Part shown: one piece after another, positions 645-54,957 of the stretch
Position numbering within the stretch: position 1 is the first letter of the stretch
Layout of the letters: every line of letters begins with the position of its first letter
NCBI GenBank assembly: GCA_019912885.1
Contig: JAIOHV010000028.1
Location: 1-55,162 of the forward strand
Source: a bacterium
Lineage (GTDB): Bacteria > Lernaellota > Lernaellaia > JACKCT01
Length of the DNA stretch: 55,162 nt
Direction of reading: 5' to 3'
Notes under the pieces: generated by a model
What the model was told of the DNA's origin: nothing
Database searches by the model: none
Seen by the model: the letters and a program-made list of their open reading frames with translations, nothing else
Position numbers and translations under genes: made by a program

Positions 645-2252
645 TCAGCAGCCGCAGCAGCCGTCGTCGTCATCGTCGTCATCGTCATCGTCATCGTCAT
701 CGTCGTCGGTCGCCGCGTCATCGTCATCCGCGTCATCGTCGTCGCTGTCGTCGTCGTCCGCGTCGTCGTCGTCCGTGTCGTCATCGTCCCCGTCCGGGCC
801 CTCGACCGTGATCGACACCGTATCCGGCGCCGAGCTGTCGATGCCGTCGGACACGACAAGCTCGAATTCGTACGTTCCGGACAGAAGCGCGGTGAAGCTC
901 GGCGCCGCGGCGGTCGCATCCGACAGAATCACCGTCTCCGGGCCGGACAGTTGATCCCAGATAAAGGTCAATGGATCGCTATCCGGATCGAACGAGCCGG
1001 TGCCGTCCAGATTGACCACGGTGCCGATCGGCACGGTGGCGTCGTCGCCCGCGTCCGCGACCGGCTCGGTGTTCGACGTGTTGAAGAACTTGAGGACCAG
1101 AAGATCCGCCCCGCCCGCGTAGCCGTTTCGCCCGTCGAAGAAGCCGACCGAAAGCAGCGCGCCCGCGCCGCTGTAGTCGTCCGCTTGCCACGTCTGCCCG
1201 CCGTCTTCCGTTTTGACGATGACGGCCTGGTTGCTGTAGGAGAAACCGACACCCCAGCCGACCTGCGGATTCAGCATCTGGAAATCCGCGATCAGGTAGA
1301 ACGAATTGGGATCGCCGATGCCCGGCACCGACGGCATCGTTGCCTCGTCCCACGTCGCGCCGCCATTGGTGGTGTAATTCAGCGAGAACGACGCCGAGAA
1401 CAGGCTCGACGCCAGGTACCAGCCCGTATTCGCATCCAGGAATTGAACCTTGCGGATACCGCGCGGCCCGTCGGAGGCGATGATGTTCCAGGACGCGCCG
1501 CCGTTATCCGTGCGGATGATCTCGCCGTTGACGCCTTGCACGTCCTCGAATTCGACGTATTCGTCATGCGTCTCGAACGATATGAAGAAGGTCTGATTAT
1601 CGACGACCGACACGCTTGTCGCCGTCGATTCGTCGGAAACCAGCGCCGGCGCCATCAGCGACCAGCTCGTGCCGCCATTGCCGGTGATCCAGAGGTTGTC
1701 GAACTCGCCCGCCGCCACGCCGAGGTTCGTATCCGCGAATCCCGCCGCCGTCAGCGTCGCGGATTGCGGCGCGCCCGTCAGCGCGATCGGCGTCCATTCG
1801 GTCGTGTAGTCGCCGCCGCCGGTCGCCGTGTTCGCGATGTACGGGTACGGAGCGTTGAGATCGAAAAGACTGCATCCCGTGTAGCCGTTGCCCCAGGAAC
1901 CGAAGGCCAGGCCGTTGTTCGCGTCGAAGAAATGCGTGTCGCGTACGTAAAGGTACGCGCGGCACCCGAAGTCCGGACCCGGGAACTGATTCACCTCGAA
2001 CGGATAGGTCAGCGTCACGCCGCTATCCACCGATTTCATCAGGAACTTCGCCGTGATGAGCGACGGCGCGATAAAGGCCTCGCCGACACCGACGAAGGTC
2101 GACTCCGACTGCGGATACATTTTCGTGATCGATCCGTAATCCGCGAACCCCGTCAGTTGGTGCTGCTCGGTCCAGAACGTCGCATGGGCGCCCGTTGCGA
2201 ACACGAGCGTCAGCGCGGCGCATATCGCCGCCGCCGTGAATTTCGACCGCAT
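645..2252 (-). CDS. Secreted BNR/Ycf48-like repeat protein with PKD domain and polyAsp-Cys C-terminal tail
   Basis: The 535-residue product starts at an ATG preceded by GAGGAGGG, which decides this start over a longer upstream frame. It has a signal peptide (about 1-24, cleavage after GAHA) with no lipobox. Residues ~30-380 hold repeated T.NGG.SW / DGGQTW units typical of BNR/sialidase or photosystem-II-assembly (Ycf48-like) propellers. A PKD-type domain follows (~410-500; ADAGDDATVPIG, LDGTGSFDPD, WDQLSG, YEFELVVSDG). The last ~50 residues are almost pure Asp broken by single T, A or S, ending in GCCGC. The tail is at the extreme C terminus with no transmembrane helix or Arg cluster, so it is not a MYXO-CTERM, GlyGly-CTERM or LPXTG signal. 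Likely surface-exposed or secreted; the propeller's ligand is unknown. Confidence 0.88.
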   Translation of the reverse strand: MRSKFTAAAICAALTLVFATGAHATFWTEQHQLTGFADYGSITKMYPQSESTFVGVGEAFIAPSLITAKFLMKSVDSGVTLTYPFEVNQFPGPDFGCRAYLYVRDTHFFDANNGLAFGSWGNGYTGCSLFDLNAPYPYIANTATGGGDYTTEWTPIALTGAPQSATLTAAGFADTNLGVAAGEFDNLWITGNGGTSWSLMAPALVSDESTATSVSVVDNQTFFISFETHDEYVEFEDVQGVNGEIIRTDNGGASWNIIASDGPRGIRKVQFLDANTGWYLASSLFSASFSLNYTTNGGATWDEATMPSVPGIGDPNSFYLIADFQMLNPQVGWGVGFSYSNQAVIVKTEDGGQTWQADDYSGAGALLSVGFFDGRNGYAGGADLLVLKFFNTSNTEPVADAGDDATVPIGTVVNLDGTGSFDPDSDPLTFIWDQLSGPETVILSDATAAAPSFTALLSGTYEFELVVSDGIDSSAPDTVSITVEGPDGDDDDTDDDDADDDDSDDDDADDDDAATDDDDDDDDDDDDDDDGCCGC

Positions 2253-10697: not shown

Positions 10698-12320
10698 CTA
10701 CCACCGATACCGCAGCACCGTGTCCGCGGCCGGCCGCGCCGGATTCGTGTCCGGCCAGTCCAGGTTGTCGTGCAGGCCGCGCGATTCCTTGCGCTGCATT
10801 GCCGACACGATGATCAAGTCCGCGACGACGGCGATGTTGCGAAGCTCCAGCAGGTCGCGCGTGACCAGGAAGTTCCAGTAGTACTCGCTGATCTCCCGGC
10901 GCAAAAGGTCGATGCGCGCCTTGGCCCGCTCGAGCCGCCGGTCGGTGCGCACGATGCCCACGTAGTTCTGCATGAAGCGGCGGATCTCGTCCCAGTTTTG
11001 CGTCACGATGACTTCCTCGTCCGAAGGCGTGGCGCCGCCGATATCCCACGCGGGCGCGTCCGGCGGCGCGGGCCACTCGTGCTGGTGCGCGCGAGCATAC
11101 TCCGCCGCCTGATGCGCAAACACCGCGCCCTCGAGCAGCGAGTTCGACGCCAGGCGATTGGCCCCGTGCAACCCCGTACACGCGCATTCGCCGATCGCCG
11201 ACAGCCCGGGGATCGACGTCTGCGCCATGTCGTCCGTGCGCACGCCGCCGCACTGGTAATGCGCGGCCGGCGCGACGGGAATGCGGTCGCGCGTGATGTC
11301 GATGCCCAACGCGAGGCAGCGCGCGTGGATGTTCGGGAACTCCGCGCGGATCGTGTCGGCCGCGACGCGCGTGAAATCGAGGAACACGTTGTGCCGGCCG
11401 GAGGATTTGATCTCGTGGTCGATCGCGCGGGCGACGATGTCGCGCGGCGCGAGGCTCCCGCGCGGGTCGTGCCGCTTGACGAACTCTTCCCCCTCCTCGT
11501 TGACGAGCACCGCGCCCGCGCCGCGCACCGCCTCGCTGATGAGGAAGTTTTTCGCGTGCGGGTGAAAAAGCACGGTGGGATGGAACTGCACAAACTCCAT
11601 GTTCGCGATCTCCGCGCCCGCGCGCGCGGCCATGGCGACGCCGTCGCCCGTCGCGACATCGGGATTGGTCGTCAGCAGATAGACCTTCCCCGAGCCGCCG
11701 GTCGCGAGCGCCGTGTGCCGCGCGAGAATCGTCTCCACCTCGCCGGTGGGGACATTCAAAACGTACGCGCCGTGGCAGCGATCCGGCCCGGAGCCGCCCA
11801 GGTGCTTGCGCCGCGTCAAAAGGTCGATCGCCATGTGGTGCTCGACGATGCGGATGTTCGGCTCGTTGCGCGCGCGAGCCAGCAGGGCGCGCTGGATCTC
11901 CTCGCCCGTGATGTCGCCCGCGTGCAACACGCGCCGGCGCGTGTGCCCGCCCTCCAGGTGCAGGTCGTATTGATCCTCGCCGAAGCCGCCGTGCGTCCCT
12001 CGGCCGTTATGCGCGCGCGTGAAACGCACGCCCCACGCGATCAGCTCCTGCATGCGATCCGGCGCGGACGAGACCGTCAGCCGCACGATGTCCTCGTGGC
12101 AAAGCCCCGCGCCCGCGTTGAGCGTATCGATGACGTGAAGCTCGATGTCGTCGTCGTCCGCGACCACCGTCGCCACGCCGCCCTGCGCCCAGGCGGTGTT
12201 GGTATCCGCCGCCTCGCGCTTGGCGAGCACGATGACCTCGCCGAGCGAGGCGGCCTTGATGGCAAACGATAGCCCGGCGATGCCGGTGCCGATGACGAGA
12301 AAGTCGGTGCGGATGGTCAT
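10698..12320 (-). CDS. nadB: L-aspartate oxidase
   Basis: 540 residues, typical NadB length. FAD fold at the N terminus (VIGTGIAGLSFAIKAASLGE) and the flavoprotein motifs THGGFGEDQYDLHLEGGHTRRRV and GVAMAARAGAEIANMEFVQFHPT. The C-terminal helical domain and the segment CGGVRTDDMAQTSIPGLSAIGECACTGLHGANRLASNSLLEG are strongly NadB-like. It oxidises L-aspartate to iminoaspartate, which NadA condenses with dihydroxyacetone phosphate to quinolinate for NAD synthesis. nadA and nadC are not in this window. No clear ribosome-binding site precedes the ATG; an 8-bp tandem repeat lies just upstream. Confidence 0.95.
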   Translation of the reverse strand: MTIRTDFLVIGTGIAGLSFAIKAASLGEVIVLAKREAADTNTAWAQGGVATVVADDDDIELHVIDTLNAGAGLCHEDIVRLTVSSAPDRMQELIAWGVRFTRAHNGRGTHGGFGEDQYDLHLEGGHTRRRVLHAGDITGEEIQRALLARARNEPNIRIVEHHMAIDLLTRRKHLGGSGPDRCHGAYVLNVPTGEVETILARHTALATGGSGKVYLLTTNPDVATGDGVAMAARAGAEIANMEFVQFHPTVLFHPHAKNFLISEAVRGAGAVLVNEEGEEFVKRHDPRGSLAPRDIVARAIDHEIKSSGRHNVFLDFTRVAADTIRAEFPNIHARCLALGIDITRDRIPVAPAAHYQCGGVRTDDMAQTSIPGLSAIGECACTGLHGANRLASNSLLEGAVFAHQAAEYARAHQHEWPAPPDAPAWDIGGATPSDEEVIVTQNWDEIRRFMQNYVGIVRTDRRLERAKARIDLLRREISEYYWNFLVTRDLLELRNIAVVADLIIVSAMQRKESRGLHDNLDWPDTNPARPAADTVLRYRW

Positions 12321-12333
12321 GGGAAACGCAGAA

Positions 12334-12402
12334 TAGACTGAAAGTCTGAAAGTCTGAAAGACTGGAAGTCTGAAAGTCTGAAAGACTGGAAGGCTGGAAG
12401 GT
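12334..12402. repeat. Tandem 8-bp repeat (CTGAAAGT-type)
   Basis: About eight degenerate copies of CTGAAAGT / CTGGAAG units lie immediately upstream of nadB. A further degenerate tract (CCGCAGATTACGCAGATGGC) lies at 12489-12508. The 252-bp gap up to 12572 shows no gene. Confidence 0.75.
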
Positions 12403-12572
12403 CAGCGCAAAGTCAAGCCGCCTGGGAGCGCCGAACGCCAGTTCAGCCCTGGGACCGCGGGCGGCCCGCCCGCTTCAATACCGCTTGAACGGAATCCGCA
12501 GATTACGCAGATGGCACAGATTTAAAGGATATCAAGTCGCGCGAAAGTGGCGCGACGAATCGCACACCTACC

Positions 12573-13403
12573 TCAACACCCGCACGCGCCCCCGGAATCG
12601 GCGTTGTCATCGTCATCGTCAACGGGCGTACCGGTATCGTCGTCGTCGTTCGCGGAATCGTCGTTGGTCGCATCGTCGTCCAAATCATCGTCGCCGCACG
12701 AAGGACACACGATTTCCGTATCTAGTTGACACTCACCGTAGCTCGAATATCTGTATCCCTCGCAGTATGAAATACAGTTGCAGTAATCGTCATATTGCGC
12801 TTCGACGCCGACCCACTCTCCGTTCACTTCGTCGAAGACGCATCGTTCATCCACGAAATTTCCGCCACACATATCGTCTAAGCAATCCAAATATTGGTAC
12901 TCGACGTCGACATAGCATTCCCCAATTTCTAGTTCATAACATACATTCGGAGAATATTTACTCTTTCTATCACGAGAAGCGGCATTATCGCTGCCGCATT
13001 TTTTATTTTCGTTACATGATGGGCAGAAATCACGATGCTCGTTTTGACAATTAATACGGCAATTGCCCTTAATCTCAAAGTCACACACGGAATAGCAGGA
13101 ACAATAATCATCGTATTCCGGCGCGACACCCTCCCACGCCTGCGTATCCTCATTATAGATACACCGTTCATCGGCATAGTCGCCGCCACATTCGTCATCG
13201 ACGCAACCAATGAATTCATATTCACAATCGAGATAACATGGACCCAAAAGCACGCTATAACATTCTTCACCCGCTGCGCCTCCGCGCGCTTTTTGATCGT
13301 GCGCGTAAGAATTCCGCGAGTGTGTCACCGTAACCGCCAAAGCGCCGATCACCACAAACCCAACGGCGAACGCAAATAATGTATAGTGCGCACTACGAAT
13401 CAC
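12573..13403 (-). CDS. Secreted two-domain Cys-rich protein with Asp-rich tail ending GGACGC
   Basis: 276 residues from a GTG with GGAG ten bases upstream. A hydrophobic signal segment (~7-29) is not followed by a lipobox. Two internal copies of a ~90-residue Cys-rich domain follow (CYSVLLGPCYLDCEYEF... ending CPSC, and CYELEIGECYVDVEYQY... ending CPSC). Each shares the core C(V/L)DD.CGG.......C.....W.GV...YDDYC.C. The C-terminal ~45 residues are Asp-rich and end in GGACGC. It is a tandem paralogue of the gene at 13423-14253 (19 bp apart, same strand, same length). The DNA is AT-richer than the core genes. Function unknown; the Cys density suggests an extracellular disulfide-stabilised fold. 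Confidence 0.85.
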   Translation of the reverse strand: MIRSAHYTLFAFAVGFVVIGALAVTVTHSRNSYAHDQKARGGAAGEECYSVLLGPCYLDCEYEFIGCVDDECGGDYADERCIYNEDTQAWEGVAPEYDDYCSCYSVCDFEIKGNCRINCQNEHRDFCPSCNENKKCGSDNAASRDRKSKYSPNVCYELEIGECYVDVEYQYLDCLDDMCGGNFVDERCVFDEVNGEWVGVEAQYDDYCNCISYCEGYRYSSYGECQLDTEIVCPSCGDDDLDDDATNDDSANDDDDTGTPVDDDDDNADSGGACGC

Positions 13404-13422
13404 TTTTTATGCTCCGCATCGA

Positions 13423-14253
13423 TCAGCCTCCGCACGCGCTTTTGCCGGAATCGTCGTCGTCATCGTCACCCGCCGCGCCCGTGTCATCGTCATCGGCGGC
13501 CGAATCGTCGTCGGTCGCGTCGTCGTCAAGATCGCCGTCGTTGCAGGAAGGGCAACGGATCTCTGTATCGGTATCGCACGCGAGAAAGCAATTGATGCGA
13601 TCAAGCTTACATGCCTCATTGGCGCAATCGCAATACTCGTCATATTGCGGCTCCGCCCCTTTCCAGCCGTGGCTATCATCGTCAAAGACGCACCACTCAA
13701 GGACATGATTGCCATCGCACTGCTCTTCTACGCAGTCGAACCAATCGTATTCACAACCGACGTAACATTCGCCGATTTCCAGATCTTGACACGAATACGG
13801 CGTATCTTTCTGCTTGACGGAGCGTACTTCCAAGTTCCCGTAGACCCCCTTTTTATTGTCGCACGTGGGGCAGGAGTCAATAAACTCCTCGCGGCAGTCC
13901 GCTTGGCAGGCTCCCTTGAGCTCAATGTCACAATGGTTAAAGCAAATGCAATACTCGCCGTATTCGGGTGCGACGCCTTGCCACGTTCCAGTTTCTTCAT
14001 TAAAGACACATTGCTCGCCTGAAAAATCACCTCCGCAGTCGTCATTTACACAAACAAAGAATTCGTACGCGCAGTTGATGTAGCAAATCCCCAAGAGACT
14101 ACTGTAGCAGACATCGCCCGGTTCGCCTTCGCGAGATTTTTGCTGCTGCTCAACTGAATTCGCACCCGTAAAAGAATATATACTAAACATCGTAATTGCA
14201 AGGAGCATAACATAAAACGACGGTCGCGCGTGCCTAGTACTTGTCAAACTCAT
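13423..14253 (-). CDS. Secreted two-domain Cys-rich protein with Asp-rich tail ending KSACGG (paralogue)
   Basis: 276 residues; ATG preceded by GGGAGGAA. The signal segment (~12-31) lacks a lipobox. Two Cys-rich domains match those of the downstream neighbour: CYSSLLGICYINCAYEF.CVNDDCGGDF...W.GVAPEYGEYC.C (ending CPTC) and CQDLEIGECYVGCEYDWFDC...W.GAEPQYDEYCDC (ending CPSC). The acidic tail (DLDDDATDDDSAADDDDTG...) ends in SGKSACGG. First gene of the pair, probably co-transcribed with 12573-13403. The four domain copies imply an internal duplication followed by gene duplication. Confidence 0.85.
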   Translation of the reverse strand: MSLTSTRHARPSFYVMLLAITMFSIYSFTGANSVEQQQKSREGEPGDVCYSSLLGICYINCAYEFFVCVNDDCGGDFSGEQCVFNEETGTWQGVAPEYGEYCICFNHCDIELKGACQADCREEFIDSCPTCDNKKGVYGNLEVRSVKQKDTPYSCQDLEIGECYVGCEYDWFDCVEEQCDGNHVLEWCVFDDDSHGWKGAEPQYDEYCDCANEACKLDRINCFLACDTDTEIRCPSCNDGDLDDDATDDDSAADDDDTGAAGDDDDDDSGKSACGG

Positions 14254-14397
14254 TTTCGATTCCTCCCAACTTAAGCGCGATTCCGCAAGGCTTTTCGAAT
14301 TAACGCTGGTAGAGCTCGGAATTCAAAGCTCTTTTTATGGACGATTTTACCACAACTCGCATTATAATTTCGATCCTCCTTGAACGGGCGCCAAAGT

Positions 14398-15576
14398 TTA
14401 CGGACAGCTGTTCGCGATCGTGATTTTACCCCGCAGCGGAATCCAGTTGTTCTGCACGCTGTCTTCTGACGGGTTTAGCAATGGGTCGATACGCATAATG
14501 ACGTAATATTCCGCTCCCAAGGACACACTACTCGGGATCGAGTATTGTGTATGTATAAGCTGCGACTGATTGCCGCCAATATTCTGAGTAAATGTCGTCG
14601 TAGATTTTTTGTCTTGAAAAAAGTTCCAGTTTTCGTCTGTCGAAAGCCAAAATTGCAAATTTACAGTCTCGCTCACGATGCCTTTATTTTGAGAAGCAAC
14701 GGCAATTTTTACGTTGTCTCCCGGACACAACCCGGTTGTCGTTGCCGGAATAGAGCAATATGTATCACCTAACAGCGTGTAATAATTTGAGCCGCTTGAT
14801 GGCCAGCAAAGCCGGACCATATCGCAAACGTAACCACCTTCCGCTTCCTCACACGTACCGATAACTTCATATATGTCTATCCAAAAATTTGCCAATGCCA
14901 AATCTCGCTCGTCAAGGTAGTCTGAGGAATCCCAATACAAAATGCGTAATCCCAACCTATCGTTAGGCAACGCCTCGACCATTTCATGAGAAGGATTATT
15001 TGTAAACAGCCCCGTAGTACTGGGTGTACGGTAATTCATATATGACAAAACGTCATCTTCATGTTTTAGACCAATCGCGTGGCCTAATTCATGGACGTGT
15101 TCCATGCGTGCATATCGTTGGCCACCGTCAGCAGTCGCGCTTGGATTATAATACGTACTTGGAACGTCCCATACCCAGTCAATGCCGGAATTCAAGTGGA
15201 TATTAGCCTCGACAATTTTACAGTCGTCATTCGCGTCCGTTGTCCAATTCGCCCAACCAGCTGAACTGCTACCTGTAGAAAGCCAGATTTCCGAAATCCC
15301 GTTTGCGTCACTCGGCACCGCAGTCTTTGTACTCCAAGTTGGACTAATCCATACGCCCGCGATCGGGCCGACTCGCTCGAGTATTTCTGTTATTGAGTCG
15401 CGTCTTTCTTGCGTGTTGTATTGACCCACACTCGTAATAATCTCGAAATTCGGATCAGACTCCCATTTAACACATCCGCAGTTTCGCCACCAGCAATTCC
15501 ACGCTTGTGCGTCGGACGGGAAATTTATTGCGACTATGGCAGCGATGATCGCGAGTATCATGCCGATCGTTTTCAT
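14398..15576 (-). CDS. Secreted metzincin-like zinc metalloprotease
   Basis: 392 residues with a clear signal peptide (1-25, cleavage after DAQA). ATG preceded by GGAGGAATAA. The catalytic motif HVHELGHAIGLKHED contains HExxHxxGxxH, and a Met-turn candidate SYMNY follows ~12 residues later, the hallmark of matrixin-type (M10/M12-like) proteases. The N-terminal part (WNCWWRNCGCVKWESDP) is Cys-rich. The C-terminal ~120 residues look like a beta-sandwich adhesion domain (CPGDNVKIAVASQNKGIVSETVNLQFWLSTDE resembles CARDB). It lies downstream of the exported protein gene at 15641 on the same strand and in the same AT-richer tract, so the two may be functionally paired. Confidence 0.85.
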   Translation of the reverse strand: MKTIGMILAIIAAIVAINFPSDAQAWNCWWRNCGCVKWESDPNFEIITSVGQYNTQERRDSITEILERVGPIAGVWISPTWSTKTAVPSDANGISEIWLSTGSSSAGWANWTTDANDDCKIVEANIHLNSGIDWVWDVPSTYYNPSATADGGQRYARMEHVHELGHAIGLKHEDDVLSYMNYRTPSTTGLFTNNPSHEMVEALPNDRLGLRILYWDSSDYLDERDLALANFWIDIYEVIGTCEEAEGGYVCDMVRLCWPSSGSNYYTLLGDTYCSIPATTTGLCPGDNVKIAVASQNKGIVSETVNLQFWLSTDENWNFFQDKKSTTTFTQNIGGNQSQLIHTQYSIPSSVSLGAEYYVIMRIDPLLNPSEDSVQNNWIPLRGKITIANSCP

Positions 15577-15640
15577 TTATTCCTCCGTCCGCTTCGATAA
15601 GGCTCGCACAAAAATTGACGGCCCGTGCGATGCGACGCCG

Positions 15641-16354
15641 TCACGGCTGCAAGAACGCCTTATATTCATCAAGAAACTTATCCTTGGTTATTTCGACGTT
15701 CTCGGGTGATTCATTTGAGACGGAAATCATTTCGTCGATCGTGAGTTCAAATGCATCCAATACCATTGCCTCGGTTCGCACGGCATCGTTCTCCGTTGAA
15801 TATGTTCCCCACTCGCTCGCCCATTTGACACAAGACCGCTTGTCGGTTTTTTCGGTCCAGCAATGAATTTGTTTTTGGGACTTGCGCTTCGCCGAATCGA
15901 ACGCTGTGATTGCCCGCCAATCGTGATCGAACACGATCGTCTTTCCGGCACCGTTGGCGACGCGAAACACGCCCGCGTCGCCATGAACGGTCGCCCAAAG
16001 TGGATATTTGCGCGGATTCAAAAAAACAATCACTTCTTCGCCAGCGTGATAATCCGGCTGGCCGGATATGAAAAAATTTCGACCGTTCTCCAATCTTCCG
16101 CCGCCGGTGTAAAAAACCAGATCGACCCCTTCGTTCGTGCCGCGATAGGCGTGCGCCACCGCCAATGTAACGATGCTATAGGGAGTTCGTATGCCTTGAG
16201 AATTTTCGACGTATTCCCAGTCAACGCTCTTCACAACGCCGCGCGCGACGATGCCCGCTTCGTTGAGCATGCCCATTGGGGTCGGATCGTCGGCCCGAAA
16301 TTCGTGCGCCGGTGCAATTTGCGGCACGAGGACTAACGCCGCAGCGAATATCAC
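15641..16354 (-). CDS. Exported protein of unknown function (start ambiguous)
   Basis: From the GTG at 16354 the product is 237 residues: a signal peptide (MIFAAALVLVPQIAPA) and a mature domain starting HEFRADD. The frame stays open to a GTG at 16435, which would add 27 residues encoded mostly by a heptamer repeat (AAGCYGC)6 and lacks an upstream Shine-Dalgarno. The perfect AAGGAGG lies after that GTG and instead serves an ATG at 16419 in another frame. That frame stops at TAA 16357, two bases before the GTG at 16354, suggesting translational coupling. The mature protein includes VDLVFYTGGGRLENGRNFF and GEEVIVFLNPRKYP; similar proteins often accompany secreted metalloproteases. I do not recognise the function. 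Confidence 0.7.
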   Translation of the reverse strand: MIFAAALVLVPQIAPAHEFRADDPTPMGMLNEAGIVARGVVKSVDWEYVENSQGIRTPYSIVTLAVAHAYRGTNEGVDLVFYTGGGRLENGRNFFISGQPDYHAGEEVIVFLNPRKYPLWATVHGDAGVFRVANGAGKTIVFDHDWRAITAFDSAKRKSQKQIHCWTEKTDKRSCVKWASEWGTYSTENDAVRTEAMVLDAFELTIDEMISVSNESPENVEITKDKFLDEYKAFLQP

Positions 16355-17835: not shown

Positions 17836-19947
17836 TCAGGGATCGAGGCCAAGCCAGAAATCGCCCGACCGCACGAGCTGTCCGTCGCCGTCGTGGCCCG
17901 CGACGCGGAAGGGGCGGCGCTCGCGATCGCCGGGGTTGATCAGAACCTCGTGCAGCGTTTGCAACTCGTCCGTTCCGGGCGTCGTGTGCGTGTAGATGGG
18001 AAGCCGCTCGCCCCATTCGACAAACGACGACGCGCCGCTCGTCGACATCCAGGAGATCGTGTACGTGCCGTCGCCGTGGTCGGTAGCCTCGATATCGTAG
18101 AGCGTCGTCGGCTCCCACGCCTCGGAGTCCACCTGTTCGGGGAAGCCCTGGCGCAGGTCGACGACAAAGTTTCGGATGCGGTTCGGGTTGCCCGGCGAAA
18201 TCCCGGCGCCCCAGCGCGCCTCGATGGAATCCGCGAGGTCGAGAAGCGTATCGGCGTTCCACTCCAGGATGTCGTCGTCCTCCGGGTGGCCGTACTGCTT
18301 GTGCAGGAAGCGGAAGACGGTGTCGTCGAGCAAGCGCCAGACGTACGCGATGTCGCGGTGCAGTTCGAGCTTGTCGTGCAGCTCGTCGTAATCGTCCGAA
18401 TCGGCGAACGCATCCTCGATCGATTCGAGCGCGGCCAGGTTGTCCTCCGCCAGCTCGATCGCCTCGGTCGATTCCTGCCACAGATCGACGAGCGTCTGCA
18501 CCGTGGGGACGATGAGCGCATCGAACACCGGACGCCAGACGGCGTCGTAGAGCGTCGTGTTGCGCCCGAGCAGCATCGCCGGGAAGCGCGCGGAGTCGGT
18601 GACGTCCGAGCCTTTTTCGAGCGTCCACATGCCGAGCGAGTAATACATCTTGCGCATGGCGAAGTGCGAATTGCGGAAGATCGCCTTCAGCGTGCCGGAC
18701 GCGGGGTCGCTCGCGGCGATGCCGTAGCGTTCGTCGAACCAGGCGCGATACACGTCGTCCGGCGTCGCGGCCGCGTCGTCCATGTAGGCTGCGTACGCAA
18801 ACAGGTTCACCTCGTTCGCGTCGCCGAGCGCGTGGTTGCCGCCGCGTTCGATGCGCGCCGCCGCGCCGAGCGCGCCGATGGCGACGTCGTATTGCCAGCG
18901 CCAGCGGATGTAATCGACCTGGCCGTTCAGGATGCGCGAGGCGCCCCAATATTCGTTGCCGAGATCCATCTCGATGATCTGGTGCCGGTGGCCGACGTTG
19001 CCGATCAAAAGGTTGTCCGGATAATACGGCTGCCAGTCCTGCGGCACGTCCTTGCTCATCACCGCGAGGCGATGATCGCCGTAGGTCGAAAGCGACTCAC
19101 GCAGCCACTCGATCTCCGCGCGCTGGTGCATGAACGTACGCACGCGCAACTCCTTGCCGAACTCGTCCATCACCACGCCGCCGACCTCGTCGTAGATCTG
19201 CTTAAGGCGCGCGGGCGGATCGGAATTGATGAGATCGAGCAGCGGATTGCCGGTGTCCGGCTGATCCACGCACCACTGGCAAAAACACACGGCATACCAC
19301 GGCTCCACGTCGGAGCTGCCGAACATCAGGATGACGCCGTCGATCTCGGGCACGGCGGAAAGCGCGTCGCGATACGCCTTGCGCCTCCTCTCCCAGAGCT
19401 TGTCGTCGGGATCGAGACACAACACATAAAACTCGCGCGCGAACTCGTGCGCCCACACCCAGACGCTAAGCCCGAGCGCGTGCGCCTCATCGGCGATGTC
19501 CTTGATCTCGACGGCCTTCGCGGGGCTCTCGTTGATCTCGTCGATGTCCATGATGATGTCGTGCGAGAGCTGCACGTTGTCCATGCCGTATTCGACGGCG
19601 GCGGAAAGCGCCTCCGAGATGTGCTCGCGATTGTCGTCCAGGAGGATGAAGCCGTAGGTCGGATCGCCAAGCGGCGTGGTGTCGTCATCGCCGGTGTCGT
19701 CGTCGGCATCGTCGTCATCGAAAGTGTCGTCGTCGTCGGCGTCGTCATCATCGTCGATGTCGTCGTCGGCGTCGTCGTCGTCGGTGTCGTCGTCATCGAT
19801 GGCGGTGTCGTCGTCGGGCGAGGCATCATCGTCGTCGTCATCGTCGCCGCACGAACACCCGGCGGCGGCGACCAACGCAAGGACGCCAAGCCATACGAGC
19901 AGATGTAGGAGCGCCGCGCGCCGCGCCGCGGATCGAAGCGGATTCAT
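17836..19947 (-). CDS. PolyAsp lipoprotein with a glycoside-hydrolase-like domain
   Basis: 703 residues from the ATG preceded by GGGAGAGGG. Lipobox ...LVAAAGC (Cys31), then SCG and ~50 residues of Asp in short runs separated by T, A, I, S or G. The large domain starts near residue 85 (TYGFILLDDNREHISEALSA), with TIM-barrel-like features: VEYGMDNVQLS, ALGLSVWVWAHE, IDGVILMFGSSDVEPWY, RTFMHQRAEIEWL, and Trp/Arg-rich QVDYIRWRWQYDVAIGAL. It recalls alpha-glucuronidase (GH67)-like or related carbohydrate-active folds, but I cannot assign an activity. A beta-sandwich-like C-terminal domain (~620-703) follows. The acidic linker would hold the enzyme away from the membrane. Confidence 0.82.
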   Translation of the reverse strand: MNPLRSAARRAALLHLLVWLGVLALVAAAGCSCGDDDDDDDASPDDDTAIDDDDTDDDDADDDIDDDDDADDDDTFDDDDADDDTGDDDTTPLGDPTYGFILLDDNREHISEALSAAVEYGMDNVQLSHDIIMDIDEINESPAKAVEIKDIADEAHALGLSVWVWAHEFAREFYVLCLDPDDKLWERRRKAYRDALSAVPEIDGVILMFGSSDVEPWYAVCFCQWCVDQPDTGNPLLDLINSDPPARLKQIYDEVGGVVMDEFGKELRVRTFMHQRAEIEWLRESLSTYGDHRLAVMSKDVPQDWQPYYPDNLLIGNVGHRHQIIEMDLGNEYWGASRILNGQVDYIRWRWQYDVAIGALGAAARIERGGNHALGDANEVNLFAYAAYMDDAAATPDDVYRAWFDERYGIAASDPASGTLKAIFRNSHFAMRKMYYSLGMWTLEKGSDVTDSARFPAMLLGRNTTLYDAVWRPVFDALIVPTVQTLVDLWQESTEAIELAEDNLAALESIEDAFADSDDYDELHDKLELHRDIAYVWRLLDDTVFRFLHKQYGHPEDDDILEWNADTLLDLADSIEARWGAGISPGNPNRIRNFVVDLRQGFPEQVDSEAWEPTTLYDIEATDHGDGTYTISWMSTSGASSFVEWGERLPIYTHTTPGTDELQTLHEVLINPGDRERRPFRVAGHDGDGQLVRSGDFWLGLDP

Positions 19948-20008
19948 GCACCCTCTCCCGAAAAGGAAAGACGGCGCAGGATAGCAAAGCGCACGCGGCG
20001 CAAACAGA

Positions 20009-20077
20009 GTCGCACGTCGCCCGTGCGCCAGCACTGCAAACAGAGCCGCACGCGTGAGCAAGCGGCCTCCCCAACCG
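20009..20077. repeat. Short dispersed repeats in a 368-bp gene-free stretch
   Basis: GCAAACAGAGTCGCACG and GCAAACAGAGCCGCACG are near-identical direct repeats ~30 bp apart upstream of the lipoprotein gene starting at 19947. The rest of 19948-20315 has no gene; near its left-hand gene it holds the palindrome GGGACTGTCCC (20297-20307). Confidence 0.6.
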
Positions 20078-20315
20078 CACAGCGATCCGACCGCAGGGAG
20101 AATTTTTTCTACTCGCGAACAAAGCGCTGTTTCAAATAGGCCGCGACCCCGTCCCCGACAGGCCTAACCGAACCGAACCCCTGAACGCTTAAACGACGAC
20201 CGAAAAACTACCAAATCCTCAACAAACGCCCGACACGAACTCCGCGAAATCCAGCACCGAAGCCGATACGCAAAAGGCTTATCTTAGCGCCATTCGGGAC
20301 TGTCCCTGTTATCCC

Positions 20316-20828: not shown

Positions 20829-20830
20829 CC

Positions 20831-22654: not shown

Positions 22655-22664
22655 CGCGCTTGCC

Positions 22665-27025: not shown

Positions 27026-27121
27026 ACACCGCAAAAACGCGCACATCACCCGGACATCCGTTCTCTCCTCGCTCGGCAAAATGCGGTAAGATTCACCCGA
27101 AAAATCGGGAGGGGCGGGAAC

Positions 27122-28699
27122 GTGAGAAACGCAGCCGATCCGAAATCCGCGTTGCGGGCGAATTCGCGGACGCCGAAAGAACGTCAAAAATCGGTGCGCG
27201 AAAGTCGGTGCTTGTCCCATTTTCCCCAAGTTCTATTGGGATTTTTTATAGTTTATCGCATGTTGGCCGTCGCCGCAAACGCCGAATTCCTTTTACCAAA
27301 CAATCCGAATTGGGATTTTGACGGAGGATATGATTGTGCTTTCTTATATGGAGGGTTCGACCTGAATGGGGACGATTTCGAAGATCTCGTCATTGATTGT
27401 GGCGATAGATTGCTAATTTTTTTTGGGTCAACTGAAGGTTTAACCAGTGATTATAATTATGACATATTTCTACAATCCGCGCATGGCAGCTACGCTATTA
27501 TTGGGAGCGATTTAAATAACGACGGGTATGATGATTTAGTAGTGCCCAATCCAGGCTGGAATCTATTGCATGACAACAATGGAGCAGCTGGCCGCGTCGT
27601 TATATTGTATGGAGATTCGCTTCAAATTGAATCAGCAACGATTCTCACGGGCGATGCCAGTCGTCGGAATTATGGCCAAGTCGTCGCCGACAATATTGAC
27701 GTTAACGGAGACGGTTTTGGCGATTTAATCATTCAGTATCAGTCTCTCGAAGGCACGCGCACCGACGCAGAAAAAGTCGTCGTCCAAGCTTCTTATCATG
27801 GCACCAATGCGGGCGTTTCCAACACACCTTCTTGGATATATTCGTACGATGATTGTGATGCACTATGGGCGCAGATTACTCCCTTGGGCGACTTCAACAA
27901 CGATGGATACGACGACATAGCAATTACTTGTGGACTTGCCAATCCTGCAGAGATTTTATTTTTCCTAGGATCGCAATACGGCTTACCTCAATCACCAAAT
28001 GTTATTATAAATAGTGACAATCAATATTTCCATGATTGGCTATCCGTGTTCCACCTCGGCGACGTTAATGGCGATGGCGTTGATGACCTAGCGAGCACCG
28101 ACTCAGATATTATTTATATATTTTACGGGAATAATTTGAGATTCGACGACCTCTCATACTCCAAAACCTTAAATCTATTCTCCGATGACGGCTCTCCAGT
28201 TGGACCTGCCACATTATTTTACAGCAATCGAAGTAATTCCACGAATTTTAATGGCGATATATTTGACGACTTAATAGTAACTTGGCTTAATGATAAAGAT
28301 CTGGTGCCGTATCTCGGATACATCACCGGCTCTGCGTCCGGCATTCAAAATGATATTTCTTGGTCCGCTCTTATTAGTGATCCGCAGCAACTTGCCATTT
28401 CGAATGCAGCCAGTGGCGACGTTAACGGAGACGGATCCGATGACTTGCACTATGTCGGTATTTACTACTCGGAGTTTATACCGGGTGAAATATACTTTTG
28501 GGTATTCGGCTATGAGTCAGGAAACGTTTCTAATTCTACCACAACTACGACTACTTCCACAACCGTCCAGTCGAATACGACAACGACGCAACCAACAGAT
28601 GGCAACAGCGACAACGGGGCCGATCGATTATTTTACGGCGAAGGTAAAAACGAAGATGATGACGAAGAATCCAATATAGGATGCGGATGTTCATTCTAG
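27122..28699 (+). CDS. Secreted FG-GAP (integrin-like) repeat protein with acidic Cys tail
   Basis: 525 residues from GTG 27122 (GGGAGGGG upstream). The N-terminal ~35 residues are basic, followed by a hydrophobic stretch (VLLGFFIVYRMLAVAANA) as signal segment. At least six FG-GAP-type calcium-binding loops follow: DLNGDDFEDLVI, DLNNDGYDDLVV, DVNGDGFGDLII, DFNNDGYDDIAI, DVNGDGVDDLAS, DVNGDGSDDLHY. A Thr/Ser-rich linker (~480-500) leads to an acidic end, EDDDEESN, and finishes IGCGCSF, a variant of the polyAsp-Cys tails elsewhere in the window. AT-rich compared with its neighbours, suggesting transfer. Probably a beta-propeller surface or secreted protein. Confidence 0.85.
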   Translation: MRNAADPKSALRANSRTPKERQKSVRESRCLSHFPQVLLGFFIVYRMLAVAANAEFLLPNNPNWDFDGGYDCAFLYGGFDLNGDDFEDLVIDCGDRLLIFFGSTEGLTSDYNYDIFLQSAHGSYAIIGSDLNNDGYDDLVVPNPGWNLLHDNNGAAGRVVILYGDSLQIESATILTGDASRRNYGQVVADNIDVNGDGFGDLIIQYQSLEGTRTDAEKVVVQASYHGTNAGVSNTPSWIYSYDDCDALWAQITPLGDFNNDGYDDIAITCGLANPAEILFFLGSQYGLPQSPNVIINSDNQYFHDWLSVFHLGDVNGDGVDDLASTDSDIIYIFYGNNLRFDDLSYSKTLNLFSDDGSPVGPATLFYSNRSNSTNFNGDIFDDLIVTWLNDKDLVPYLGYITGSASGIQNDISWSALISDPQQLAISNAASGDVNGDGSDDLHYVGIYYSEFIPGEIYFWVFGYESGNVSNSTTTTTTSTTVQSNTTTTQPTDGNSDNGADRLFYGEGKNEDDDEESNIGCGCSF

Positions 28700-28705
28700 A
28701 TCATG

Positions 28706-28921: not shown

Positions 28922-29100
28922 AAAATATAGGGGACAGTCACCTATTTTTGCTTTACCTTCGGTCTTCCGATGGGCATTGGTCGGAGTCGGCGGTTGACGG
29001 TAGATTCGAGTTTGGAGAGTAGGGAATCGGACGCGAGGGGTCGTCCGGTGTGCGTACAAAGGCGCCCTTGCGATGTGTTCGGTGTCTTCGTGTTCGTTGA

Positions 29101-41497: not shown

Positions 41498-42673
41498 TCA
41501 GCAATTGAAAAACCCGCCGTTGCCATCGTCGTCGTCATCGTCGTCCGCGGAATCGTTGTTGCTCGAATCGTCGTCGCCGGAAGCCGCGGCATCGTCGTCA
41601 TCGTCATAGTCGGACATTTCATCGTCGTCCGCGGAATCGTCATCGGGCGTATCGTCGTCGGATGCGTCGTCGTCAACCGCGTCGTCGTCTGGGTCGCGAG
41701 GCAAGGAAAAATTACCGGTCGACCACGGTCCAAGGTACGACCATGCGGTAAATTCAAATTTTCGCCCCGGAAGACTGTCGGTCGTCGCGTAGAACAAAAA
41801 CGTCTGCTTCTCGCCTTCGCGAACGTCACCGCCGGTCGAGGAGTCGTAGGGCACGTATTCCCAGCGGATCGCGGGCGGATCGTAAGACAGGGAATTGATC
41901 CAGTCGCCTTCGCCATGCAACGAAGGGGGATTAATCGCGTCGCCCGGCTGAAGAAGCCACCGGTCCGGCGCCAATAAGTTGACCGCGTCGATCCAATTGC
42001 CGTTTCCCATCGGGCTCGTGTTTTCGACTTCGAATTCAAACAAATAACGTGTGTCTGGCTTGATTTGCGGCGGCGACGCGATCGCGGCCGCAACCGTAAA
42101 CCCTTCCGGGGGCAGCCAATCCGGCCAGTCGCCAACGCACTCGTAGTAATCGCATGGTAATTCGAAAAACGAGGTCATCGACGCTTCAAGGGTGCACGCG
42201 AAGTAGTTGAGAAAATCGTCGGGATTACAATGGGCGGAAGCTTCTCCGTAATTCGTTTCGTAGTTCACCATGGCGAAATCACGACAAGTCATATCGTCAA
42301 CGTCAAAAATCGTTTCAATGTTTGGATACAAGGGCGCGCCGACACTGAGGAGAAACATGTCGAACGCGACGCGAGTGCAGTCTGTCCGTGCCAAATCGGT
42401 CTCACACCAGGCATAAAACGCTAAAAACGACGTTAAAGCCCAAGTCGCTCTTTCGGCGTCCGGTATGGGGACAAACGCCCAGTATCGCCCTGCACAAGAC
42501 AGACCTGGATTCGCTTTCGCGTCGGCAGGCGTACTAACGTTCTTTTCGGCGAATACGTCCGAGAGTCTGGAAATTTCCGATATTTGGGGGAACCGCTCAA
42601 TCGACGCAATAACTGGAACGGATATCAAGGACGAAAAAGCGACGAGAAGCCGTAGCACCAAGTAGCGACTCAT
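41498..42673 (-). CDS. Exported protein with polyAsp tail ending GGFFNC
   Basis: 391 residues; the ATG at 42673 follows GAGGGTGG, two codons after an alternative GTG. Signal peptide (~1-23, VPVIAS) without lipobox. Residues ~30-190 contain many Cys (SCAGRYWAF, WCETDLARTDC, DMTCRDF, HCNPDD, PCDYYECVG). A beta-rich domain with family-like motifs (TRYLFEFEVENTSPMGNGNW, REGEKQTFLFYATTD) covers ~190-325. The C-terminal ~65 residues are Asp in runs of three to eight and end GNGGFFNC. The whole gene lies between inverted copies of a short repeat (41437 and 42795), unlike its neighbours. Function unknown. Confidence 0.82.
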   Translation of the reverse strand: MSRYLVLRLLVAFSSLISVPVIASIERFPQISEISRLSDVFAEKNVSTPADAKANPGLSCAGRYWAFVPIPDAERATWALTSFLAFYAWCETDLARTDCTRVAFDMFLLSVGAPLYPNIETIFDVDDMTCRDFAMVNYETNYGEASAHCNPDDFLNYFACTLEASMTSFFELPCDYYECVGDWPDWLPPEGFTVAAAIASPPQIKPDTRYLFEFEVENTSPMGNGNWIDAVNLLAPDRWLLQPGDAINPPSLHGEGDWINSLSYDPPAIRWEYVPYDSSTGGDVREGEKQTFLFYATTDSLPGRKFEFTAWSYLGPWSTGNFSLPRDPDDDAVDDDASDDDTPDDDSADDDEMSDYDDDDDAAASGDDDSSNNDSADDDDDDDGNGGFFNC

Positions 42674-42794
42674 GGCCACCCTCGATCATTGCAACGACGT
42701 CACACTATACCCCTCCCTTGGGTTCTGCCAGCGAATTCTATCGCCGCGACAATGCGACGAGCACGGATGAGGGACCCATGCCTTGTTTCCGAAA

Positions 42795-42831: not shown

Positions 42832-43620
42832 TCAGCAGAGATTCATGCAGTCGATCGCCGTGTCGATGTCGCCCGGGCAGTAGGTGTCGGCGCAGATTTC
42901 GTAGCACGACCACGGATGGCCGGTTTTGCCGCAGACCTTCATCATTTCGGCCTCGAAGATCTGGTAGTCCGTGCCGTTGATGACGAACCCGATGCCGCAG
43001 TCGTAAATCTTGTCGACGGAAACCGTGCAGCCGCCCGTGGGCTCCACGTCGAGGCAGGCATTGAAGCAATCGACCTCGCAGGTCGTCTGCGCGCAGTCGT
43101 CAAAACAGCTCCACGTGGGGCTCGTCGTTTTGGCGAATTGCGCCAGCCAGGTTTCGAGCTCCTCGCACCAGTCCTGGTGATAAGCCGCGTCCTCGCCGCC
43201 GAATCCCACCAGGCAGCCGTTCACCATGTCGTCGGCGATTTCCGCGCACGTGGCGGGGGAGAGATCGTCGTCCGACACGTCGTCATCCGTCGCGTCGTCG
43301 TCGGAGGCGTCGTCATCGGCCCCATCGTCGTCCACGGCATCGTCATCCAGCGCGTCGTCATCATCGACGGCGTCGTCATCGTCCGCGCCGTCGTCGTCAT
43401 CGCCCAGGTCGTCGTCATCGTCATCGTCGTCCGCGCCGTCATCGTCGTCGTCATCGTCGTCGTCGTCGCCGCCGATGCCGCCGGGACCGGGAAACTCGTC
43501 GTCGATCTCGTCGTCCTCGTCGTCGTCGTCCCCGCCCCCACCGACGCAGGCGATCAACGCGCTCGATGCAACGAACGCGATCGAAATCATCAGCGTCAAC
43601 CACACGAAACGCGCGCTCAT
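42832..43620 (-). CDS. PolyAsp lipoprotein with Cys-rich C-terminal domain
   Basis: 262 residues; ATG preceded by GGGGGAT. Lipobox ASSALIAC (Cys25), then VGGGG and a ~95-residue segment that is mostly Asp in runs of up to ten, interrupted by Gly/Ala/Leu/Ser. The mature domain (~130-262) has over ten Cys (CAEIADDMVNGC, DWCEELETWL, SCFDDCAQTTCEVDCFNAC, YDCGIGF, SCYEICADTYC, DCMNLC), probably a disulfide-rich extracellular fold. Function unknown. A decayed copy of its 5' end lies upstream at 44516-44685. Confidence 0.85.
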   Translation of the reverse strand: MSARFVWLTLMISIAFVASSALIACVGGGGDDDDEDDEIDDEFPGPGGIGGDDDDDDDDDDGADDDDDDDDLGDDDDGADDDDAVDDDDALDDDAVDDDGADDDASDDDATDDDVSDDDLSPATCAEIADDMVNGCLVGFGGEDAAYHQDWCEELETWLAQFAKTTSPTWSCFDDCAQTTCEVDCFNACLDVEPTGGCTVSVDKIYDCGIGFVINGTDYQIFEAEMMKVCGKTGHPWSCYEICADTYCPGDIDTAIDCMNLC

Positions 43621-43753
43621 GGCGTATCCCCCGATGTGCCCCATTCCGACTGTGCAATTTAGCGGAATTTTCGCGTTTCGCCCAACACCGCGGGCGTATG
43701 GCCGGTCCGTCGCGCAACGCCGCGGCTCCAGGCATAACGCAGGCGCGCCTTGA

Positions 43754-44362
43754 TTAATCCGGATCCCAGCACCATTCGTCGATGCAGTCTTCGACCGTAT
43801 CGCAGGAGTCTCCATTCAAGGCGCAACCCGCGAGGCACTCCATGAACAAATCCTGCTGCCAGCACCCGTCCTCGGCTTGGTCGCGGTCAAACGGCCAACT
43901 CGGCCAGGGCGACTCCCAGCCGCAATCGTCAAAAAGGATCTCCATGGCCGTGTCGCACGGAATATCCTCACCGACTCCCGCATATTCCAGGATGCAGTCG
44001 TTCACGCACCATCCCAGGTCGCCGCAATTATCGGATGCCCACGCGCAATCGACCATGCAAAGGATCATCTCCTCACCGGATTCGCACAACTCGACCCACT
44101 GCTCGGGAGTCACTTCGTGCGCGCCGGTAATCAAGGCGACGGTCTGGCATTCGACGACGATCTCCCAAACGCCGTCCCAGCAATAACCCGATCCGCCGGG
44201 CTCGGGCTGGTCCTCCGGTAGCGCGGCCGCGGCGTCGTCATTGTCATCCACCGCCGTTTCGTCACGCGACACGCCGTGGTCGCCGCCGTCGCACCCAATC
44301 GAAACGGCATGCGCGAATGCGAAAATCAGGGCGAAAACGGACAGCCTGGAAAGAACCTGCAT
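43754..44362 (-). CDS. Cys-rich lipoprotein with short acidic linker
   Basis: 202 residues; ATG preceded by GGGAG. Signal peptide ends SIGC (Cys24), a slightly unusual lipobox, followed directly by Asp at +2, which in enterobacteria favours inner-membrane retention. A short acidic segment (DETAVDDNDDAAAALPEDQPE) leads to a Cys-rich domain (CWDGVWEIVVECQT, CMVDCAWASDNCGDLGWCVNDCILE, DDCGWES, CLAGCALNGDSCDTVEDCIDEWCWDPD). The pattern resembles the Cys domain of the downstream lipoprotein (42832-43620) in size and spacing, so the two are probably paralogous. Confidence 0.8.
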   Translation of the reverse strand: MQVLSRLSVFALIFAFAHAVSIGCDGGDHGVSRDETAVDDNDDAAAALPEDQPEPGGSGYCWDGVWEIVVECQTVALITGAHEVTPEQWVELCESGEEMILCMVDCAWASDNCGDLGWCVNDCILEYAGVGEDIPCDTAMEILFDDCGWESPWPSWPFDRDQAEDGCWQQDLFMECLAGCALNGDSCDTVEDCIDEWCWDPD

Positions 44363-44515
44363 GCGCAACTCCCGGTTCCGACCGACATCGCCGCGCACCC
44401 GCATGCCTTTTGCCGTCATTTTCAGATCCTGGCGTCTCGAGGTACACACCGTCCGTTGAAACGTTCCACGATCGCGTCGGCAAATGCGTCGCCACAGGAC
44501 GCCTTGCCGGCGGAA

Positions 44516-46988: not shown

Positions 46989-48635
46989 ATGATGCGACTT
47001 GCGACCGCCACGCCGTGGCTTTTGGTGCTCATGCTTTTCGTCGCGGCGGCGCTGCCCGCGTGTTCGTGTGGCGACGATGACGACGATGACGACGATGACG
47101 CCGCGCCGGACGACGACACGTCGTTTGACGACGACGACGCCGACGACGACACAAGCGTCGATGACGACACGGACGATGACGCCGACGACGACACGTCCGA
47201 TGACGACGCGGATGACGACACGTCCGACGACGATACGTTCGATGACGATACCGGCGATGACGATACGGGCGACGACGATTTCGCCGACGATTTCGTCGCG
47301 GACTGGCCGCAGTCGAACATCGAGCCGGACACCTACAACGAGGCGCCGGCCGCGGGCCCCATGCGCGAAAAGGCGATCGACTACGACGACTTCCACCTCG
47401 CGAACCATCAGCCCTGGTACGGCAGCACCGTCGGCACGACGAGCTACAGCGACGACACGCACACGACGATCACCGGCCACGGCGATTTCGGCGACAGCTC
47501 GATCTGGTCGGGCACGTACTTGTCGGGCCAGGCGTTCCGCTACCACGTCACCGGCGACGCGCAGGCAAAAACGAATGCGCTCAAGACCGCGTCCTCGCTG
47601 TCGCGCCATCTGCACGTCACGGGACGCACGGGCTTCATTGCGCGCTACGTGGCGCCGCAGGATCCGCTGATCTACCCGAGCGACGCGTGGTGCGAAGGCC
47701 GCGACCACTGCCACCACATCGAAACCGGCGAATACGCGGGCGACTGGTGGGAAGGCAACACGAGCCGCGACCAATACACCGGCTGGTTCTTCGGCATGGT
47801 GACCGCGTACGACCTCATCGACGATCAGGCGATGCGCGACCAGATCGCCGACGACGTGGCCGAGGTGCTCGACGAATTGATCGCCGAGGACTGGTGGATC
47901 ACCGACGTGGACGGCGTCCCCACGACGGCCGGGCCGAACGTGCTGCCGTCGCAGCAGCTCACGTGGTCGCTCATCGGCTATCACATCACGGGCGAGGAGC
48001 GCTTCGCGGATGTCGTGCGTCACTGGGTCGAGGACTCGCGCCGCGGGTTCCTGCGCCTGATGAATATCTCGTTCATGAACCGCTACGCGCAGTTCTACGG
48101 CAACAACCTCGGCCACCAGAACATGTATTCGCTGCTGCGCCTGGGGAAGGTGTACCTGTCGCCGGACGACTACGCGAACATTCTCGACATGTTCGAGACG
48201 CAGACACACACGTTCAACCGCCTGGCGCACAATGCGTTTTTCAACACGATCTTCATGAGCCAGGGCGACTACAATCCGGCGGACACCGAATATCAGGATC
48301 AGCTCGAGGAGGACCTCGGCGATTTCCGCGATGCGCCGAACACCGTGTATTACGTCGATCCGACCGACCTGCCGATCGATCCGGTCTCCGTGCTGCTCGA
48401 CAACCTGCAAACGCAGTATCCGTTCCTCGAGGAACTTTTCGGCAGCGTCGATCCACAGTCGATCGACGCGCACCCGGTGCTCGAGCAGTGCACCACGGAC
48501 TTCCTGTGGCAGCGCAGCCCGTACCGGAACGAGCCTTGCGGATCGGACAACCCGCTCGTCACGCGGCCGGGCGTCGATTACATCACGGCCTACTGGATGG
48601 CGAGCTACCACAAGTTCCTGACCAAGGATCAATAG
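46989..48635 (+). CDS. PolyAsp lipoprotein with alpha/alpha-barrel-like domain
   Basis: 548 residues (an ATG ATG pair, first at 46989). Lipobox LPAC at Cys25, then SCG and ~75 residues dominated by Asp in three- to nine-residue runs separated by T, S, A, F or G. The mature domain (~105-548) is Trp/Tyr-rich and helical: DYDDFHLANHQPWYGSTVG, GTYLSGQAFRYHVTGDAQAKTNAL, WWEGNTSRDQYTGWFFGMVTAYDLI, NNLGHQNMYSLLRLGKVYLS. This looks like a (alpha/alpha)6 toroid as in many polysaccharide lyases and hydrolases. The enzymatic class is not determined. A hairpin terminator follows (48666-48696). Confidence 0.82.
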   Translation: MMRLATATPWLLVLMLFVAAALPACSCGDDDDDDDDDAAPDDDTSFDDDDADDDTSVDDDTDDDADDDTSDDDADDDTSDDDTFDDDTGDDDTGDDDFADDFVADWPQSNIEPDTYNEAPAAGPMREKAIDYDDFHLANHQPWYGSTVGTTSYSDDTHTTITGHGDFGDSSIWSGTYLSGQAFRYHVTGDAQAKTNALKTASSLSRHLHVTGRTGFIARYVAPQDPLIYPSDAWCEGRDHCHHIETGEYAGDWWEGNTSRDQYTGWFFGMVTAYDLIDDQAMRDQIADDVAEVLDELIAEDWWITDVDGVPTTAGPNVLPSQQLTWSLIGYHITGEERFADVVRHWVEDSRRGFLRLMNISFMNRYAQFYGNNLGHQNMYSLLRLGKVYLSPDDYANILDMFETQTHTFNRLAHNAFFNTIFMSQGDYNPADTEYQDQLEEDLGDFRDAPNTVYYVDPTDLPIDPVSVLLDNLQTQYPFLEELFGSVDPQSIDAHPVLEQCTTDFLWQRSPYRNEPCGSDNPLVTRPGVDYITAYWMASYHKFLTKDQ

Positions 48636-54201: not shown

Positions 54202-54957
54202 ATGCGTTCTGTCTATTCGATTCTGATGCTCGCGGCGGTGGCCGCGATTTGCCTGTCCGCGGCGCCGGCGTTTGCCGCGACCATCGCGACCGAAGAATTC
54301 ACGAGCGGCATCCCGGCGGACTGGGTCGCCGCGGACGCCCTTGCCGGCGGCGTGATCTGGCGCGACGACGATCCCCGCTCCCGCGCGGGCACGGCCGGCT
54401 GGGCGCAGATCGCCGGCGGTTTTGTCATCGCCGACGCGGGCTTTTTCTTAGACGTTATCGCCAACGGCACCGGCGACACGACGCTGACCACGGCCGCCGT
54501 CGATTGCACGAACTTCGGCGAGGTGCAGCTTGTGTTCGCAAGTTCGTTCCTGTCCAAGGACGCGGCGGACGCGGCCGAGGTGCTCGTCGGCAACGAGACC
54601 GACGGCTTCACCGCGCTCACCCCGACGATCAACGACGACGGCACGGAGCAGGTCGTCATTGCGCCGCTCGGCGACTGGGCCGACACGAACCCCGACGTGC
54701 AGGTGCGTTTCCACTACACGAGCGGCTTTGTCAGCGACGGCTACTGGGCGATCGACGCGGTGCGTTTCACGGGCATCGACGTGACGGGCGACGACGACAC
54801 TGCGGACGACGATGACGCGGCGGACGACGACATGGGCGGCGACGACGACGCGGCGGACGATGACGACGATGATGACGATGACGATGATGACGACGACGAC
54901 GCGGCCACGGGCGATGACGACGACGATGACGATGACGGGGGTTGCTGCGGCGGCTGA
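54202..54957 (+). CDS. Secreted beta-sandwich protein with polyAsp tail ending GGCCGG
   Basis: 251 residues; ATG with GGGAGAT upstream. Signal peptide ~1-25 (cleavage after APAFA), no lipobox. The ~165-residue domain (TIATEEFTSGIPADWVAADALAGG..., ADTNPDVQVRFHYTSGFVSDGYWAIDAVRF) resembles a jelly-roll choice-of-anchor or MAM-like domain that often precedes anchoring signals in secreted proteins. The last ~55 residues are Asp-rich in runs up to fifteen or more and end GGCCGG. Upstream of another polyAsp lipoprotein gene (34-bp gap), so both ends of the system occur side by side. Confidence 0.85.
   Translation: MRSVYSILMLAAVAAICLSAAPAFAATIATEEFTSGIPADWVAADALAGGVIWRDDDPRSRAGTAGWAQIAGGFVIADAGFFLDVIANGTGDTTLTTAAVDCTNFGEVQLVFASSFLSKDAADAAEVLVGNETDGFTALTPTINDDGTEQVVIAPLGDWADTNPDVQVRFHYTSGFVSDGYWAIDAVRFTGIDVTGDDDTADDDDAADDDMGGDDDAADDDDDDDDDDDDDDDAATGDDDDDDDDGGCCGG

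Follow-up and report, generated by a model that had tools for sequence, protein, structure and literature searches.

Two adjacent genes of the window (the whole analyzed stretch of DNA, 55,162 nucleotides) encode exported proteins composed of a repeated Cys-rich domain and a short acidic C-terminal tail with Cys residues. The question raised by this locus is what these two elements, the domain and the tail, represent.

In the gene pair, designated P0002 and P0001, most of what the preliminary description had proposed from the letters of the DNA was confirmed. The genes are tandem paralogues of equal length, placed on the same strand with 19 bp between the ORFs, and in both products a signal segment, two Cys-rich domains and an Asp-rich tail (...DDDDDNADSGGACGC and ...DDDDDDSGKSACGG) were distinguished (Table 1); inspection of the N-termini revealed no lipobox in either protein. 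The BLASTP similarity between P0001 and P0002 (E = 2e-70) and between copies 1 and 2 of the P0001 domain (E = 1e-23) excludes chance resemblance. The identity of domain copies at corresponding positions (d1-d1 55%, d2-d2 49%) is higher than that between d1 and d2 (34-42%), and therefore the internal duplication is older than the gene duplication, in the order already suggested. Diversifying selection, put forward as a possible driver, was not supported, as the divergence of the pair amounts to dN ~0.38 with saturated synonymous sites. The location of the pair in AT-richer DNA was borne out, with a GC of 0.45-0.57 at the pair itself vs. ~0.65 in its surroundings. Such islands (window positions 12000-16000, 20000-23000 and 27000-29000; GC 0.44-0.57 vs. 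~0.65) overlap genes that are exported or lineage-specific, among them the P0001/P0002 pair and an FG-GAP tail protein. The region directly upstream of the pair (14398-15576, minus strand) encodes an exported protein with a weak Peptidase_M10 match (HELGHAIGLKH) and without the tail. The best explanation of the two sequences is that P0001 and P0002 are small exported surface proteins, each displaying two copies of a lineage-restricted domain.

Table 1. Positions of the gene pair, its domains and tails, and of other Asp-rich exported proteins in the window.
Feature	Position	Strand	Description
P0002, gene 1 of the pair	13423..14253	-	276 aa, ATG start; signal segment, two Cys-rich domains, Asp-rich tail ending ACGG-stop
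P0002 domain copy 1	13861..14118	-	13 Cys
P0002 domain copy 2	13543..13800	-	13 Cys
P0002 Asp-rich C-terminal tail	13423..13542	-	ends KSACGG-stop, variant terminus
P0001, gene 2 of the pair	12573..13403	-	276 aa, GTG start; signal segment, two Cys-rich domains, Asp-rich tail ending ACGC-stop
P0001 domain copy 1	13014..13271	-	13 Cys
P0001 domain copy 2	12696..12950	-	11 Cys; Cys at domain positions 16 and 71 lost together
P0001 Asp-rich C-terminal tail	12573..12695	-	ends GGACGC-stop
Exported tail protein	645..2252	-	...DDDDDGCCGC-stop
FG-GAP repeat protein, variant tail	27212..28699	+	...NEDDDEESNIGCGCSF-stop; upstream start at 27122 also listed
Exported protein, Asp-rich tail and variant end	41498..42679	-	...DDDDDDGNGGFFNC-stop
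Exported protein, Asp-rich tail	54202..54957	+	...DDDDDDDDGGCCGG-stop
Mirror-case lipoprotein	46989..48635	+	Asp-rich tract after lipobox Cys (PACSCGDDDDDD); no C-terminal tail
Mirror-case lipoprotein	17836..20061	-	AAGCSCGDDDDDDD...; no C-terminal tail
Mirror-case lipoprotein	42832..43815	-	ALIACVGGGGDDDD...; no CxC tail

The domain, previously estimated at about 90 residues, is 86 aa long, with 20 columns, including 10 Cys, invariant across the four copies. No family of Pfam or NCBIfam matches it, and searches by tblastn and genome scan, which covered the genome of origin, 97 other genomes and the GTDB 220 contigs, returned no relative beyond these four copies. A profile search recovered only P0001 and P0002 in the genome of origin and six class mates. 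AlphaFold2, run on the four-row alignment, predicted a beta-alpha-beta-beta-alpha-beta order with helices at positions 9-28 and 51-78 (mean pLDDT 88.1, pTM 0.72; the pLDDT of the five models spans 88 to 30), and a repeat with another copy leading the alignment gave the same element order at lower confidence (68.2). The helical hairpin accommodates the Cys residues in an antiparallel register: positions 12/75, 16/71, 23/63 (64 in one copy) and 28/59, paired from sequence positions and not from model coordinates, sum to 86-87, as expected for two antiparallel helices, and positions 16 and 71 are lost jointly in copy 2 of P0001. The domain is thus probably an alpha-helical hairpin zipped by a disulfide ladder. 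A Foldseek search of the PDB with the predicted domain gave nothing at E < 1. Its weak neighbor, the phospholipase A2 fold, also has two long antiparallel helices joined by disulfides; at E > 1 and a TM-score of ~0.4 the similarity is not significant and no homology is claimed. As judged by these searches of Pfam, NCBIfam, PDB and genomes, the domain is undescribed, in agreement with the preliminary description, and lineage-restricted. Elsewhere in the window (42832-44449, minus strand) there are two further Cys-rich exported proteins without Pfam matches, which contain helical-looking C-x(3)-C motifs.

The acidic Cys tail, mentioned in passing in the preliminary description, is genome- and class-wide, and more important than the domain pair. 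In the genome of the window (G000), the pattern C-G-C-stop gave 91 raw matches vs. 7 for the reversed-pattern control, and a pattern of Asp-rich DNA followed by Cys and a stop gave 325 matches (a count inflated by nested matches) vs. 7 in reverse. The 70 tails that were parsed from 60 genomic regions of G000 most often end with GCGC (34) or CCGC (23), followed by ACGC (4), SCGC (2) and a few variants; Cys occupies position -3 in 69 of them, Gly position -2 in 68 and Cys position -1 in 64. The CGG end of P0002 indicates that the final Cys is not obligatory. The terminus is preceded by an Asp-rich tract (median 44 residues), whose charged residues, summed over 62 proteins, are 1573 D, 47 E and only 14 K/R, and Cys makes up 41% of the last six residues vs. 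1.4% of the bodies of the carriers. Ten different codon spellings encode the CGC terminus; with the low reversed-pattern control, they led us to reject a low-complexity artefact or codon slippage as its origin. Long Thr-rich stretches are present ahead of the Asp tract in several tail proteins (L043, L063, L076 and L158).

Nearly all full-length carriers have a Sec signal peptide, and a signal segment was found in 62 of the catalogued ones. The bodies of these 62 proteins are unrelated (mean column identity 8%). Those recognized by Pfam include FG-GAP, S8 (subtilase), PKD, Kelch, M14 (zinc carboxypeptidase) and metallophosphatase types, and others match choice-of-anchor J and myxosortase-dependent M36 models. 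In other systems such body types carry surface anchors, and the sharing of one short terminus by many unrelated exported proteins is a general feature of C-terminal sorting tags. A lipoprotein-like N-terminus was seen in only one of the 62 carriers (L087). In the mature parts of the carriers, no window exceeds the hydrophobicity threshold. A hidden transmembrane (TM) segment reached by readthrough or recoding was rejected, as an in-frame scan past 70 tail stops detected no consistent TM or hydrophobic continuation.

The tail is not a peculiarity of one genome. The seven class genomes gave 142, 97, 119, 9, 73, 110 and 30 matches to the pattern Asp-C-G-C-stop, in which nested starts make a single tail count repeatedly, against control values of 0-2. 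Each of 91 genomes outside the class gave 0-3 matches, and the C-G-C-stop excess is likewise present in all six class mates of G000. Among 84,980 genomes, a set that may leave out the window's own genome, matches to D4-G(G/C)CGC-stop were confined to one metagenome-assembled genome of FEN-1099 (FR-FEN-1099-1); FEN-1099 of GTDB corresponds to Candidatus Lernaellota (PMC11382960). At the sequence level, the tail is restricted to the class and present in 7/7 of its genomes examined. The literature searched, which left out most subscription papers, holds no description of such a TM-less tag.

The closest known system is MYXO-CTERM (TIGR03901) with its myxosortase MrtX (NF040593). In MYXO-CTERM, a GCGC core precedes a TM helix and an Arg cluster. 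Carriers of this tag, 35 in M. xanthus, are believed to undergo lipidation, cleavage by myxosortase and export through the type II secretion system (T2SS); the Cys-modifying enzyme of this pathway is still unknown (PMC11980579). Both systems show an acidic run-up to a GCGC core with an invariant Cys, Sec-exported surface proteins and many carriers per genome, and the generic signature core is present in the tail (ACGC and ACGG in P0001 and P0002). The tail proteins differ in lacking the TM helix and the Arg cluster, the stop codon following directly after CGC or CGG. The TIGR03901 model did not match P0001 or P0002 above the cut-off, and its one match in the whole genome of the window is a TM-bearing S8 protease. 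TM-type ends resembling MYXO-CTERM coexist there with TM-less tails (L101 on G000:C34 and L139 on G000:C127), the TM-type versions of G000 being EDGGCGCRAASGE...TM...RR of a subtilase and DEGCGGCSASS...TM...RRRRK of a phosphoesterase. For MrtX, only CPBP relatives below the cut-off were found, in 6/7 class genomes, the exception being G001. One class genome (G001) matches neither TIGR03901 nor NF040593, yet it contains dozens of tails, and the tail therefore does not appear to need myxosortase. By its features, the tail is the GCGC core of MYXO-CTERM minus the TM and Arg parts and not a MYXO-CTERM member; by analogy, it may work like the processed form of MYXO-CTERM. The GlyGly-CTERM/rhombosortase, PEP-CTERM/exosortase and LPXTG/sortase systems likewise use a short C-terminal tag common to unrelated exported proteins; unlike the tail, all of these tags are known to include a TM segment and a basic end (PMC11980579).

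A mirror arrangement is found in the lipoproteins of the same genome. An unbiased sample of 362 kb yielded 25 exported proteins in which a strong Asp tract was distinguished; they were assigned to the lipoprotein or signal-peptidase-I class from sequence, with the N-termini partly judged by eye. By this assignment 18 are lipoproteins. None of these has a CxC tail, and in 17 the Asp tract lies on the side of the N-terminal Cys, frequently in the form CSCGDDDD. The remaining seven have signal-peptidase-I type signals, and all of them combine a C-terminal tract with Cys in the last four residues (tails in 0/18 vs. 7/7; Fisher P = 2e-6). The Asp tract thus adjoins a putative anchor Cys at either end of the protein (CSCG-DDDD vs. 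DDDD-GCGC). The tail differs from lipobox lipoproteins of the Lgt/LspA pathway in that its Cys is C-terminal instead of N-terminal, the lipobox is absent and the signals are of the signal-peptidase-I type.

We propose, with a probability of about 0.6, that the class-wide, TM-less C-terminal Cys tail is a sorting and surface-anchoring tag. It probably acts through modification of Cys, a chemistry that we infer. The carriers would first be exported by Sec via the N-terminal signal peptide, after which the terminal Cys would undergo modification, most likely lipidation through an enzyme of the Lgt type. The folded protein would then cross the outer membrane via T2SS and stay on the surface, where the negatively charged Asp tract may serve as a spacer or stalk. 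This end state would be the one thought to be reached by MYXO-CTERM proteins after myxosortase removes the TM part; here the gene already stops at GCGC. Against this proposal, no bacterial system is known to lipidate the C-terminal Cys of proteins that lack a TM segment to keep them at the membrane.

Candidate components are encoded in the class genomes. A T2SS secretin match was found in 7/7, although that of G000 is spread across two contigs and scores under the cut-off. Each genome contains three Lgt-like loci (L148-L168), some of them split or frameshifted, which in a quick tree group for the most part as three clades, each with a single representative of every genome. A candidate modifier of the terminal Cys is an extra enzyme of the Lgt type. 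A connection of the tail with one of the Lgt paralogues, drawn from one genome and the quick tree, is a lead only. In the class genome with the fewest tails (G003), one Lgt clade has no clear representative, and on contig G000:C133 a lipoprotein-like tail gene lies ~0.6 kb upstream of an Lgt-like gene of that clade, on the same strand (L087 and L158). More tentatively, the phylum may possess an unprecedented type of anchoring: the C-terminal C-G-C that follows the polyaspartate stalk of Sec-exported, TM-less proteins would be the site of lipidation or of another covalent attachment, carried out by a dedicated enzyme, possibly one of the three Lgt-like paralogues.

Further points count against the anchoring role: the Asp tract might by itself bind calcium or act as a spacer for some other purpose, the CGG end of P0002 dispenses with the final Cys, and L087 carries the tail together with what looks like a lipoprotein N-terminus. 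A structural explanation, in which the terminal Cys cross-links the proteins into an extracellular matrix or S-layer-like sheet through disulfides between molecules or through bound metal, with the Asp tract as a cation binder and no sorting role for the tail, we consider rather unlikely. It is in keeping with the two or more terminal Cys (GCGC, CCGC, CGCGC) beside a polyanionic tract and with the Cys-richness of P0001 and P0002 themselves; however, the near-exclusion with N-terminal lipoproteins and the position of the Asp tract beside the lipobox Cys fit an anchor better, and the terminus matches the core motif of MYXO-CTERM.

An improbable alternative is that the tail is a signal for outer-membrane export, e.g., for substrate recognition by T2SS, with subsequent release of the proteins. 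The secretin of every class genome and the nature of the carriers, which are typical secreted hydrolases and repeat proteins, would suit such a role, but a short linear C-terminal signal is not known for T2SS, and anchoring systems are the ones typified by an invariant Cys. It is highly improbable that the tail is a decayed MYXO-CTERM, whose TM parts were lost and whose leftover GCGC is a functionless relic. The coexistence of TM-type versions in the same genomes speaks for such decay, but a relic would erode, whereas the motif hardly varies among 70 proteins although its codons are mixed; moreover, the tail is class-wide and persists in G001, where MYXO-CTERM and MrtX were not detected.

Known C-terminal sorting tags depend on a TM segment to keep the protein at the membrane during enzyme action. 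If the sorting and anchoring role is true, a tag with nothing beyond the Cys motif, carried by dozens of proteins per genome in one candidate phylum, would represent a different mode of anchoring; alternatively, it may mean that the first step of the MYXO-CTERM pathway, the modification of Cys, is separable. The tail would also offer a straightforward way to predict which proteins make up the surface proteome of an uncultured phylum.
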